Source: DASVDK01 sp036381125 [NCBI: Thermodesulfobacteriota bacterium] (GTDB lineage Bacteria; DASVDK01). From it: 26,883 nt of DNA. The notes under the pieces were generated by a model that saw only the letters and a program-made list of their open reading frames with translations, was not told the origin of the DNA and searched no databases. This document shows, in pieces, positions 1,822 through 4,330 of the stretch. The first letter of the stretch is position 1. Every line of letters starts with the position of its first letter. The stretch spans positions 1-26,883 of the forward strand of contig DASVDK010000151.1 in the NCBI GenBank assembly GCA_036381125.1, given 5' to 3'. A program made the translations under genes and the position numbers.

Positions 1822-2204
1822 TTACTCGGCGTGACCGGCGCCCTTCGCGGCCGCGTGGATCCCCTCCACGTAGCCGACGAACCCGAGTTCGGCGCTCACC
1901 CGCTCGCGGGCGGCCTGGACGCCGCTCCGGGACGCAGGCGTCTTCGTCGCGGCCGACCTCGCCATTGCCTCCTCGAAGCGATGCGTGATGCCGTGGCTTA
2001 CCGCGCCGGTAAGGAGCCCCCTGACCTCGCCGACGTCACCGGTCTCGAGGGCCCGCTCGGCCGGTCGGCGAGGGCCTTCGCCTCCGCGCCCTTGCCGCGG
2101 ACGGCGAGCGCCTGCTCGTAGGCGGCGACGAGTTCGGCCTCGGCCTCGGCCGGGGCGTAGGGGAGGACCAGGTTCACGTTCTTCGCGTCGAGCGCCTCGA
2201 CCAT
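1822..2204 (-). pseudogene. DUF6448-family protein, internally deleted and frameshifted
   Basis: From an ATG at 2204 the minus strand reads MVEALDAKNVNLVLPYAP, then AEAEAELVAAYEQALAVRGK, then GAEAKALADR. This resembles the N-terminal half of DUF6448 proteins (NVNLVL..., LAVR...EAKELAD). Right after ALADR the frame is lost. A second frame continues AERALETGDVGEVRGLLTGA, then VSHGITHRFEEAMARS, and ends GFVGYVEGIHAAAKGAGHAE with a TAA at 1822, matching the family C-terminus. The middle segment of the family (about 30 residues, around YFFETLVRIHRAGEGAPYTG) is missing at the join near 2055-2065. The signal peptide and HCDTMDGP start are also absent. The family assignment is from memory of the pattern; the two-frame structure is seen directly. 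Function of the family is unknown. Confidence 0.7.
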
Positions 2205-2266
2205 CGTTCGTGTTGACCGCTCGGACCGGCGTGCCGGGCAGTCGAGCCCGGCAGGCCGCCCGATTG

Positions 2267-2316
2267 CGCCCTGACGGTACGGCAGGGGCGGCGCAGGGTC
2301 TGCGACCGGAGTCGCC
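2267..2316 (-). promoter_or_regulatory. Crp/Fnr-type operator and promoter upstream of the DUF6448 remnant
   Basis: On the plus strand 2301-2316 reads TGCGA-CCGGAG-TCGCC, two half-sites around a 6-bp spacer with the GA-N6-TC core used by Crp/Fnr proteins. On the minus strand a -10-like TACCGT lies at 2279-2274, predicting a start near 2267 and placing the operator centre at -41.5 (class II position). The same 16 bases (2299-2314) recur at 2884-2899 upstream of the hemerythrin gene with identical spacing to a TANCNT hexamer. No -35 box is visible, as expected for an activated promoter. Confidence 0.5.
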
Positions 2317-2352
2317 CGGGCGGTCGCCCTCACGGCTGATCGTCGTCCACGG

Positions 2353-2802
2353 TCACCGCCCGAGCGTCGCCTTCAGGTAGCGGCCGACCAGGATGGCCGC
2401 GGGGTAGAGGACGGCCTCCTCCGTCTGCGCGTGCAGCACGAGCTTCCCGGCGAAGTCCGCGACGTCGGGTCTCCCCTCCTGTCGGGCCGCCTCGGCCAGC
2501 GCGTCGAGCGCCGCGACGATCCGGCCGTGCTCGGTGAGCATCCGCGGCAGCTCGGCCTCGAGGGCGTCCGTCAGCGGCAGGACGGCGGCCATGTCGGGCG
2601 TCGCCTCGCCGGTCGCGAGCCGCGCGAGCAGGCCGAGGGGCGGCGTGGCGATCTGCTCCTCGCGGACGAAGTGGGGATGGAGGACCTCGGCGACGGCCTT
2701 CGCGGCCTGGCCGATGCGGCCTCCCGCATTGATGGCATCGACGAGGCTCCTGTGGAGCGCCTCGTGCTCGAGGGCAAGCGGCTTCGGGGCTTCGAACGTC
2801 AT
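2353..2802 (-). CDS. Hemerythrin HHE-domain protein
   Basis: Predicted cytoplasmic non-heme di-iron protein of 149 residues, one four-helix hemerythrin-like domain. Candidate iron ligands sit in LALEHEALHRSL, VLHPHFVREE, MLTEHGRIVAAL and LVLHAQTEEAVLYP, the usual H...HxxxE...H...HxxxE spread. Such proteins bind O2 or NO, or take part in nitrosative-stress repair; which applies here is not decidable. An upstream in-frame start would give a 222-residue product, but the ATG at 2802 has an AGGAG site at 2815-2811 and fits the domain, so it is preferred. The gene diverges from a Crp/Fnr regulator and has a Crp-like site 80-100 bp upstream. With nrfHA nearby, a role in NO or nitrite metabolism is likely (inference). 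Confidence 0.88.
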   Translation of the reverse strand: MTFEAPKPLALEHEALHRSLVDAINAGGRIGQAAKAVAEVLHPHFVREEQIATPPLGLLARLATGEATPDMAAVLPLTDALEAELPRMLTEHGRIVAALDALAEAARQEGRPDVADFAGKLVLHAQTEEAVLYPAAILVGRYLKATLGR

Positions 2803-2826
2803 GGTCTGGTCTCCTCGACGAGCTTC

Positions 2827-2849
2827 GCCGGGCCGGGTGCCGGCCCGGC
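2827..2849 (-). promoter_or_regulatory. Perfect 9-bp hairpin in the hemerythrin leader
   Basis: GCCGGGCCG-GGTGC-CGGCCCGGC is a perfect inverted repeat between the predicted start (about 2852) and the AGGAG ribosome site (2815-2811). If the start is right, the mRNA begins almost directly with this stem. It could protect the 5' end or affect initiation. It lacks a T-run and is not a normal terminator. Confidence 0.45.
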
Positions 2850-2851
2850 TT

Positions 2852-2901
2852 CGTGGCCATGCTAGAGCGTCCACCTCCCCGGTTCTGCGACCGGAGTCGT
2901 G
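2852..2901 (-). promoter_or_regulatory. Crp/Fnr-type operator and promoter of the hemerythrin gene
   Basis: On the plus strand 2886-2901 reads TGCGA-CCGGAG-TCGTG, an inverted repeat with the GA-N6-TC core. On the minus strand a TAGCAT -10 candidate lies at 2864-2859, giving a start near 2852 and an operator centre at -41.5. The element matches that at 2301-2316. The likely binder is the Crp/Fnr regulator encoded divergently at 3061, whose recognition helix has R200, E201 and R205, the R-E-x3-R pattern of Crp. Binding is inferred. Confidence 0.55.
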
Positions 2902-3060
2902 CACGGGCGAGGATGTTGCATGCGCGTGCTGCGACGGTGGGGGTGGGCGACCGCTCTTTCCAGGGGAAAGGGACGAGCAGGGCGCCCGGAGGCGGGTTGC
3001 GGGGACGCCGGGACGCGGCACGACGGCCGCGCCGGGTCAACCCGACGCAGTGAGGTCCAC

Positions 3061-3792
3061 ATGTCCCAGCCCGCGGAAAGGGTCGGCCGGGTGCTGTCGC
3101 CCGAAGTGCTGCGAGGCATCCCGTACTTCGCCGAAGTCGACGCCGCCGGCCGCGAGGCGCTTGCCAGGGCGGCCCGGCTCCAGGGCTACCGGGCGGGCGA
3201 GGTCGTCCTGCTCGAGGGGGCACCCTGCCGCGGGCTCTACGTGGTGGTCGAAGGGCGGGTGAAGGTCTACAAGGCGTCGGCCGACGGGAAGGAGCAGGTG
3301 CTGCGCATCCTCGGTCCGGGGCGGACCTTCAACGACGTCCCCGTCTTCGACGGCGGGCCGAACCCCGGGAGCGTGGCCGCCCTCGAGCGCACGACCGTCG
3401 CGCTCCTGCCGAAGGCGGAGGTCCTCGCGTTGCTCGATCGCGACCCGAAGGTGGCGAAGGCCGTGATCAGGGTCCTGGCCGCACGGCTGCGCGCCCTCAC
3501 GGTGGTCATCGAGGACCTCTCGTTGCGGAGCGTCGTGGCCCGCGTGGCCAGGCTCCTCCTCGACTGCACGCGCGGACAGCCGGCGCTCGTCGAGGGCCCG
3601 GAGGGGGCCTGCGCGCGCCTCACCCAGCAGCAGCTCGCGGCGATGACCGGTTCGGTCCGGGAAGTCGTGCAGCGAGCCCTCAAGACCCTCGAGCGCGACG
3701 GCGCCATCCGGCTCGAGCGGGCGCGCGTGATCGTGCTCGACCCGGACGCCCTCGCACGGTGGGCCGAGGCGGACGGCCGGGGGGGCCGGTGA
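3061..3792 (+). CDS. Crp/Fnr-family transcriptional regulator
   Basis: DNA-binding activator/repressor of 243 residues. An N-terminal cyclic-nucleotide-type beta-barrel spans about 20-135 (GLYVVVEGRVKVYK, ILGPGRTFNDVPVFDGGPNPGS), followed by a dimerisation helix (137-165) and a C-terminal winged helix (about 170-236). The recognition helix SVREVVQRALKTL has R200, E201 and R205 in the same spacing as E. coli Crp R180, E181 and R185. There is no N-terminal Cys cluster, so this is not a [4Fe-4S] Fnr; an Nnr/Dnr-like (NO) or other effector is possible. The ATG at 3061 follows GTGAGG at about 7 bases. It diverges from the hemerythrin gene and sits 76 bp before nrfH, so it probably controls both (inference). 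Confidence 0.92.
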   Translation: MSQPAERVGRVLSPEVLRGIPYFAEVDAAGREALARAARLQGYRAGEVVLLEGAPCRGLYVVVEGRVKVYKASADGKEQVLRILGPGRTFNDVPVFDGGPNPGSVAALERTTVALLPKAEVLALLDRDPKVAKAVIRVLAARLRALTVVIEDLSLRSVVARVARLLLDCTRGQPALVEGPEGACARLTQQQLAAMTGSVREVVQRALKTLERDGAIRLERARVIVLDPDALARWAEADGRGGR

Positions 3793-3829
3793 GCCGCCCG
3801 TCGGGAGGCGCGACCGCCGCGAGGGGGAT

Positions 3830-3856
3830 TTGCCTCTCCTGCGCACGCTGTAGTAA
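3830..3856 (+). promoter_or_regulatory. Possible promoter for nrfHA
   Basis: TTGCCT (3830-3835) and TAGTAA (3851-3856) are separated by 15 bases, slightly short for a sigma-70 promoter. The ATG of nrfH begins 12 bases after the -10 candidate, so the leader would be only a few bases. No clear copy of the Crp-like operator seen at 2301 and 2886 was found here. The 76-bp gap after the regulator also allows readthrough. Confidence 0.35.
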
Positions 3857-3868
3857 CGTCGCAGCGCG

Positions 3869-4330
3869 ATGCCTGCGCGACGCCTGTCCGTTCCGACGGT
3901 CGTGGTCGCCGTCCTCGCCGGCCTCGCCGTGGGGGTGGGCGCGTACACGTTCGTCTACGCGAAGGGTGCCTCCTACCTCACGAACGACCCCGAAGCCTGC
4001 GCCAACTGCCACATCATGAACGAGCAGTTCTCGGGCTGGGTCAAGTCGAGCCACCGGTCGGTCGCGGTCTGCAACGACTGCCACACCCCGTCGGGGCTCG
4101 TCGCGAAGTACGCCGTCAAGGCGGAGAACGGCTTCCGCCACGCGTTCGCCTTCACGACCGGCCGGTTCCACGAGCCGATCCGGATCACCCCTCGCAACCG
4201 GGCGGTCACGGAGTCCGCCTGCCGGAAGTGCCACGCCGACATCGTGGCCGCCATCGAGGGGCCGCCGGGCGTGGACGCGAAGCCGCTCGCCTGCATCCGC
4301 TGCCACCGATCCGTCGGACACCTGGAGTGA
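3869..4330 (+). CDS. nrfH: NrfH-type tetraheme cytochrome c, quinol dehydrogenase subunit
   Basis: Membrane-anchored tetraheme cytochrome of 153 residues that takes electrons from menaquinol and passes them to NrfA. One N-terminal membrane helix (about 8-30) is followed by four CXXCH motifs: CANCH (44-48), CNDCH (68-72), CRKCH (118-122) and CIRCH (142-146). Met50, two residues after the first motif, matches the unusual heme-1 Met ligand described in NrfH. The length agrees with NrfH rather than the longer NapC/NirT. It is followed after 9 bp by nrfA, which confirms the pairing. It would act on the outer face of the cytoplasmic membrane. Confidence 0.95.
   Translation: MPARRLSVPTVVVAVLAGLAVGVGAYTFVYAKGASYLTNDPEACANCHIMNEQFSGWVKSSHRSVAVCNDCHTPSGLVAKYAVKAENGFRHAFAFTTGRFHEPIRITPRNRAVTESACRKCHADIVAAIEGPPGVDAKPLACIRCHRSVGHLE

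Follow-up and report, generated by a model that had tools for sequence, protein, structure and literature searches.

The nearest described regulon to the one considered here is that of HcpR, which is known from delta-proteobacteria and others. PMC1274295 describes HcpR sites of the form wTGTGAnnnnnnTCACAw or TTGACnnnnGTCAA, and HcpR regulons with genes of the hemerythrin, ferredoxin and nrfHA types. The same paper gives TTGATnnnnATCAA as the FNR box, and CTTGATnnnnATCAAG and ctTTGcgnnnncgCAAag as the sites of DNR and NnrR, the NO-responsive Crp/Fnr activators (PMC1274295). A literature search, with subscription papers and regulon databases outside its range, returned nothing on DUF6448 or on the operator and regulon described below.

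The window, i.e. the whole 26,883-nucleotide stretch of DNA that was analysed (GC content 74%), contains two plus-strand copies of the 16-mer TCTGCGACCGGAGTCG, at 2299-2314 and 2884-2899. We are fairly confident, from sequence comparison, that both are operators of the adjacent Crp/Fnr regulator and belong to a class II activator regulon. The copies agree without mismatch, and each overlaps an imperfect palindrome (plus strand TGCGAC-CGGA-GTCGCC at 2301-2316 and TGCGAC-CGGA-GTCGTG at 2886-2901), so that the exact duplication and the inverted repeat reported in the first-pass annotation were both confirmed. On the minus strand the predicted core of operator 1, before a remnant of a DUF6448 gene, reads GGCGAC-TCCG-GTCGCA, and that of operator 2, between the hemerythrin and regulator genes, CACGAC-TCCG-GTCGCA. 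Each copy thus contains CGAC-TCCG-GTCGCAGA, followed after 19 nt, as annotated for a TANCNT motif, by TACCGT (2274-2279) or TAGCAT (2859-2864) on the same strand. These are predicted -10 hexamers, 21 nt from the respective cores, a spacing conserved elsewhere. If they occupy -12 to -7, this distance puts the operator centres at -41.5, the class II position that had been proposed, and transcription would start at about 2267 and 2852.

The number of 16-mer copies is unremarkable by itself, since 1.65 chance matches are expected at three mismatches, within which no third site occurs in the window. In DNA of such high GC content the repeat might be put down to chance or to a non-regulatory repeat. 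We consider that reading hardly credible, as the composite GACNNNNGTCGCAGA-N19-TANNNT (i.e. GAC-N4-GTCGCAGA-N19-TANNNT) has two exact matches in the window, and no others at up to two mismatches, against an expectation of 0.08, and none of 100 shuffles gave two matches. It is contradicted already by the genome-wide composite scan and the spacing count described below, together with the conservation of the site elsewhere.

Operator 2 would be read into a hemerythrin (HHE) gene at 2353-2802 on the minus strand (Pfam Hemerythrin, 4.5e-9), which has a 60% homologue in Neoroseomonas eburnea. Divergent from it, at 3061-3792 on the plus strand, lies the gene of the Crp/Fnr-type regulator, the presumed operator binder, followed downstream by nrfH and then nrfA. 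The DUF6448 gene had been described as a remnant, and indeed its pieces lie in two minus-strand frames, each matching Neoroseomonas homologues: an open frame at 1998-2333 with the N-terminal piece (Pfam positions 10-55, 4.6e-9), and a C-terminal piece found by translation at about 1825-2016 (46-53% to Neoroseomonas). DUF6448 has decayed in the window (1825-2333), yet operator 1 and its -10 hexamer are intact, and the promoter may therefore now drive nothing useful.

A contig scan with the regulator gave 42 loci. The closest were two from one MAG (L001 and L002, 66-67% identity) and two from Neoroseomonas (L003 and L004; 64% and 62%); the remaining loci were mostly from Chloroflexota at 42-50%, and ten fell below 36%. 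The sites at the close homologues read TCTGCAACCTACGTTGCA (L001), TCTGCGACTTTGGTCACA (L002), TCTGCAACCTAAGTCGCC (L003) and TCTGCGACCAAAGTCGCC (L004). Regulator and DUF6448 genes diverge in both Neoroseomonas, with a hemerythrin gene after DUF6448 in N. eburnea, so that the partners are those seen in the window. G001 is the genome of L001, and its phylum, which we infer to be Methylomirabilota, has a regulator homologue at E 1e-35 in 26 of 95 genomes; L051 (G227), a 64% homologue, has the site TCTGCAACCTACATCACG. The molybdopterin oxidoreductase of the window has a 73% relative in this phylum, which probably includes the window as well. In Acetobacteraceae, the family to which G003 (Neoroseomonas) belongs, the regulator is rare: at the same cut-off only one genome among 200 has it, namely G003 itself, a distribution that suggests transfer.

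The predicted operator is conserved beside relatives of the regulator in Chloroflexota, in the two Neoroseomonas and in the phylum of G001. Conservation upstream of orthologous genes, the lack of which would by the first-pass annotation have refuted its proposal, was seen before intact DUF6448 in the two Neoroseomonas, and between the regulator and a divergent hemerythrin gene in Chloroflexota. Enrichment was assessed with palindromes of the half-site TGCGAC at 10 of 12 positions, up to 400 nt upstream of each homologue, with 150 of the 179 permuted half-sites as control. All four closest homologues have the site (permuted mean 0.08, maximum 1), as do eight of the 28 homologues of 42-50% identity (mean 0.45, maximum 3). 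The other 20 of these 28 have no site at 10 of 12 positions, which was counted against the operator reading, and it is likewise absent at that threshold from all ten homologues below 36% (L033-L042; permuted mean 0.31), the most distant regulators, most of which have no R-E in the recognition helix. At the 26 loci of G001's phylum a site was found on one side in seven (mean 0.65, maximum 5) and on the other in six (mean 0.65, equalled by one of 150 permutations), the sides being contig coordinates and not gene orientation. Relaxation to 9 of 12 positions gave a weaker signal: 12 of 28 at 42-50% (mean 4.06, equalled by one of 150 permutations) and two of the ten distant regulators (equalled by 104 of 150). 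By these counts the site is strongly enriched and far from universal. Also counted against the operator reading were the two DUF6448 genes found in the 95 genomes of G001's phylum (L078 and L079), which have neither a close regulator nor a site. Another clade of homologues (L065-L075, L097 and L098) has sites of the TATGACTTAAGTCACA or TGTGACCTAGGTCACG type; in L097 (4358) and L098 (4986) the site is at the regulator's 3' end, and hexamers resembling CATACT stand at a distance of 21-22 nt.

When the 95 genomes of G001's phylum were scanned for GACNNNNGTYGCAGA-N19-TANNNT, 10 matches were obtained in 10 genomes, and none with the reversed pattern. Eight of them (G001, G203, G204, G205, G206, G227, G232 and G234) lie 37-272 nt from regulator homologues, i.e. 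a strict composite match was found in eight of the 26 genomes that have a homologue. The match in G220 adjoins a broken regulator homologue, and that in G268 is probably due to chance. With the Chloroflexota form of the pattern, 10 sites were found in seven of eight genomes (control 1); six adjoin the regulator and four do not, these being L112, which precedes a DUF2249-DUF438-hemerythrin gene, L120, which precedes a frame that by eye is Hsp20-like, and L116 and L118. A looser pattern gave six matches in G001, G002 and G003 against three for the reversed control, with three of the six beside the regulator, a result counted against the operator reading; the matches elsewhere were L045, L046 inside an ABC-ATPase-like frame and L047 about 200 nt ahead of a frame like ribonuclease E (both frames by eye). 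In GC-rich metagenome DNA, a fixed distance between operator and -10 hexamer filters weak operator motifs strongly.

Crp/Fnr proteins are numerous, many genomes having 10 to 40 first-look candidates, and Crp/Fnr relatives bind similar sites, so another such protein of the cell might read these operators and the neighbouring regulator be coincidental. This seems very improbable, both because eight of the ten genome-wide matches stand beside homologues of the window regulator and because operator variant and recognition helix change together across clades. In all nine Chloroflexota with TACGAC-type sites, R-E is replaced by R-D. In a tree built without L066, L042 and L024, and with no reference HcpR, the window protein groups with L001-L004 and L051 (support 100/100), and the predicted site is present in all six rows of this clade. 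Clade B has 11 rows, nine with the site (L014 is without it, and the upstream region of L013 was not covered), and in clade C the site was found in 11 of 14 rows. The divergent regulator had been suggested as the likely partner of the operators, a pairing that conservation of the site beside its homologues supports.

For class II activation, Crp/Fnr proteins require exact spacing on one helical phase. A spacing of 21 nt was initially noticed by eye at seven of seven sites of clade A, the nearest clade, on the side away from the regulator. For a count, 32 regulator-adjacent sites were chosen from the matches, oriented by the non-regulator gene and laid out both ways. The hexamer YANNNT ([TC]ANNNT) was found 21 nt from the core in 23 sites and 22 nt from it in five, together 28 of 32, although several loci are near copies within clades, so that the effective number is smaller and the counts overstate independence. 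In 500 shuffles the best adjacent pair of offsets reached 8 at most, and nothing comparable was seen on the opposite side of the core (maximum 6, at offset 18). Among the 16 Chloroflexota sites, which were outside the first impression, 10 have the hexamer at 21 nt and two at 22 nt. The operator overlaps the -35 region in every aligned site, which would also suit a regulator that uses the same operator with the same partner, yet represses or acts dually. We regard this as unlikely, since a spacing of 21-22 nt in most of the sites is what class II activation needs. Conservation and spacing in relatives support a Crp-type operator at a class II position, with TGCGA-N6-TCGCA as its GC-rich form, as originally put forward.

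In the activator reading, a regulator dimer would bind TGCGA-N6-TCGCA (family form TRYGAC-N4-GTCRYA), the site being centred at -41.5, and would activate, in class II fashion, a promoter with its -10 hexamer 21 nt from the operator core. Both window promoters would fire away from the regulator gene, one into hemerythrin and one into the former DUF6448. Binding and activation by the regulator are inferred.

The genes read from the sites elsewhere were as follows. In clade B (Chloroflexota) the divergent gene belongs to the hemerythrin cluster in seven of nine loci (Pfam for L007), and in six of these hemerythrins, aligned to that of the window, H13, H44, E48, H124 and E128, which we take to be the metal ligands, are invariant. 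A second site, also in seven of nine loci, stands directly past the regulator and precedes a ferredoxin-cluster gene (Pfam for L007), and in L123 of the same clade the site precedes a DUF2249-DUF438-hemerythrin gene, after which come a DUF2249-like frame (by eye) and two hemerythrin genes. In clade C (phylum of G001) the site is between the 3' end of the regulator gene and a DUF2249 gene, behind which comes a COX1-like gene; four loci (L090, L091, L095 and L100) have a hemerythrin-cluster gene farther along (Pfam for L095). The COX1-like protein (L095 2611-3936, together with its cluster) is multi-TM and is repeatedly found next to DUF2249 and hemerythrin genes; that of L095 had no solved relative at E 0.01 and no NCBIfam name. 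The genes read from the clade A sites are DUF6448 (L003 and L004), HlyD and ABC exporter genes (L002 and L089), HlyD after hemerythrin in L004, and a TetR-like gene (by eye) in L001. Near HlyD/ABC exporters, L001 also has a single frame (1907-3961) that by eye is DedA-like in its N-terminal part and continues as a TolC-like outer membrane part. In G220 (L121, 4734-7801) the site, an ABC-2 permease, norC and norB stand in a row beside the regulator homologue with the broken frame, the best solved relatives of the genes after the permease being nitric oxide reductase subunits C (2.2e-25) and B (4.7e-109). Judged by these similarities, the putative norCB genes behind the site are the most direct link to NO.

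A local regulon of hemerythrin, DUF6448 and perhaps nrfHA had been proposed; its first two members are supported, with conserved sites in Neoroseomonas and Chloroflexota, and nrfHA is not. None of the 42 regulator loci showed similarity to NrfH or NrfA (about 5 kb of flank, some contigs being shorter), and the 3793-3868 spacer before nrfH in the window has no site. NrfA relatives occur in five of the 95 genomes of G001's phylum; in four of these loci (L080, L081, L082 and L084) the roughly 0.7-1 kb upstream of nrfH has no site, the scoring sites falling inside coding sequence, and the fifth (L083) starts inside nrfA. Absence from the 42 loci and the siteless regions before nrfH leave nrfHA without support as a conserved target. 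As a core target hcp was also rejected: it was above the cut-off in one of 21 genomes with the regulator lineage, with weak matches in six more. Because of this rarity the system was not filed as HcpR.

The regulator has cNMP_binding and HTH_Crp_2 domains (Pfam), and its structure model has a Crp fold (mean pLDDT 88.4). Pfam, the model and fold comparison agree on a sensor domain with a Crp-type winged helix. The fold comparison placed cAMP-binding proteins on top (Clr, Z 19.9), with the DNR sensor domain (Z 18.3) and P. gingivalis HcpR (Z 17.9, tied with others) not far behind, and it confirms membership of the Crp/Fnr family, not a ligand. The recognition helix reads S-V-R-E-V-V-Q-R, and the annotated R-E-x3-R pattern is present as R200, E201 and R205, which, aligned by motif, we take to be R180, E181 and R185 of CRP. 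The G and A of TGxGA are kept, and R200 and E201 fit the rule, given in PMC1274295, that ties the first two of these helix residues to the two bases. Fe-S cluster cysteines had been reported as missing, and the window protein sequence indeed has no N-terminal cysteine cluster. FNDVPVFD, at the position of the cAMP pocket motif of Mtb CRP, is invariant in 31 homologues (alignment A1, from which L013, L024 and L033 onward were omitted). The GE...RT of Mtb CRP reads ND...NP in the window protein, with the arginine replaced; the pocket Glu and Arg, which we presume to bind the cAMP phosphate, are thus both missing, and the altered motif argues against cAMP as ligand.

From the genes read from such sites, the signal is probably nitric oxide, nitrosative stress or O2. 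We consider it evenly balanced whether this is a separate Crp/Fnr lineage with its own pocket signature (FNDVPVFDGGPNP), which senses NO or O2 without Fe-S or cAMP, drives a hemerythrin-centred protection regulon and has been passed, together with its operator, between the phylum of G001, Chloroflexota and Acetobacteraceae. The analysis yields a model of the binding site and a list of targets for a regulator lineage whose bacteria are mostly uncultured, and brings hemerythrin, DUF2249/DUF438 and DUF6448, which is unstudied, under a single operator type. Neoroseomonas eburnea provides a cultured test case.

Compared with FNR, the regulator shares the superfamily and the class II promoter geometry, whereas the Fe-S cysteines of FNR are missing from the window protein. 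With DNR and NnrR it shares the superfamily, the fold (DNR) and NO-related target genes; however, their sites, as given in PMC1274295, differ from TRYGAC-N4-GTCRYA, and the sites here read neither TTGAT-N4-ATCAA nor TTTGcg-N4-cgCAAA. The cAMP-CRP proteins (E. coli CRP, Mtb CRP, GlxR and Clr) are alike in fold, R-E-x3-R helix, class II geometry and site shape, but differ in the pocket motif and its invariant FNDVPVFD. HcpR is likewise a Crp/Fnr regulator, with sites that, in the form given in PMC1274295, are close to TRYGAC-N4-GTCRYA and with similar guest genes; unlike HcpR sites, those described here carry C or T as the fourth base of the half-site, and hcp is rare in genomes with this regulator lineage. 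On these sequence comparisons, the regulon would be new and would work like known class II Crp/Fnr activators.
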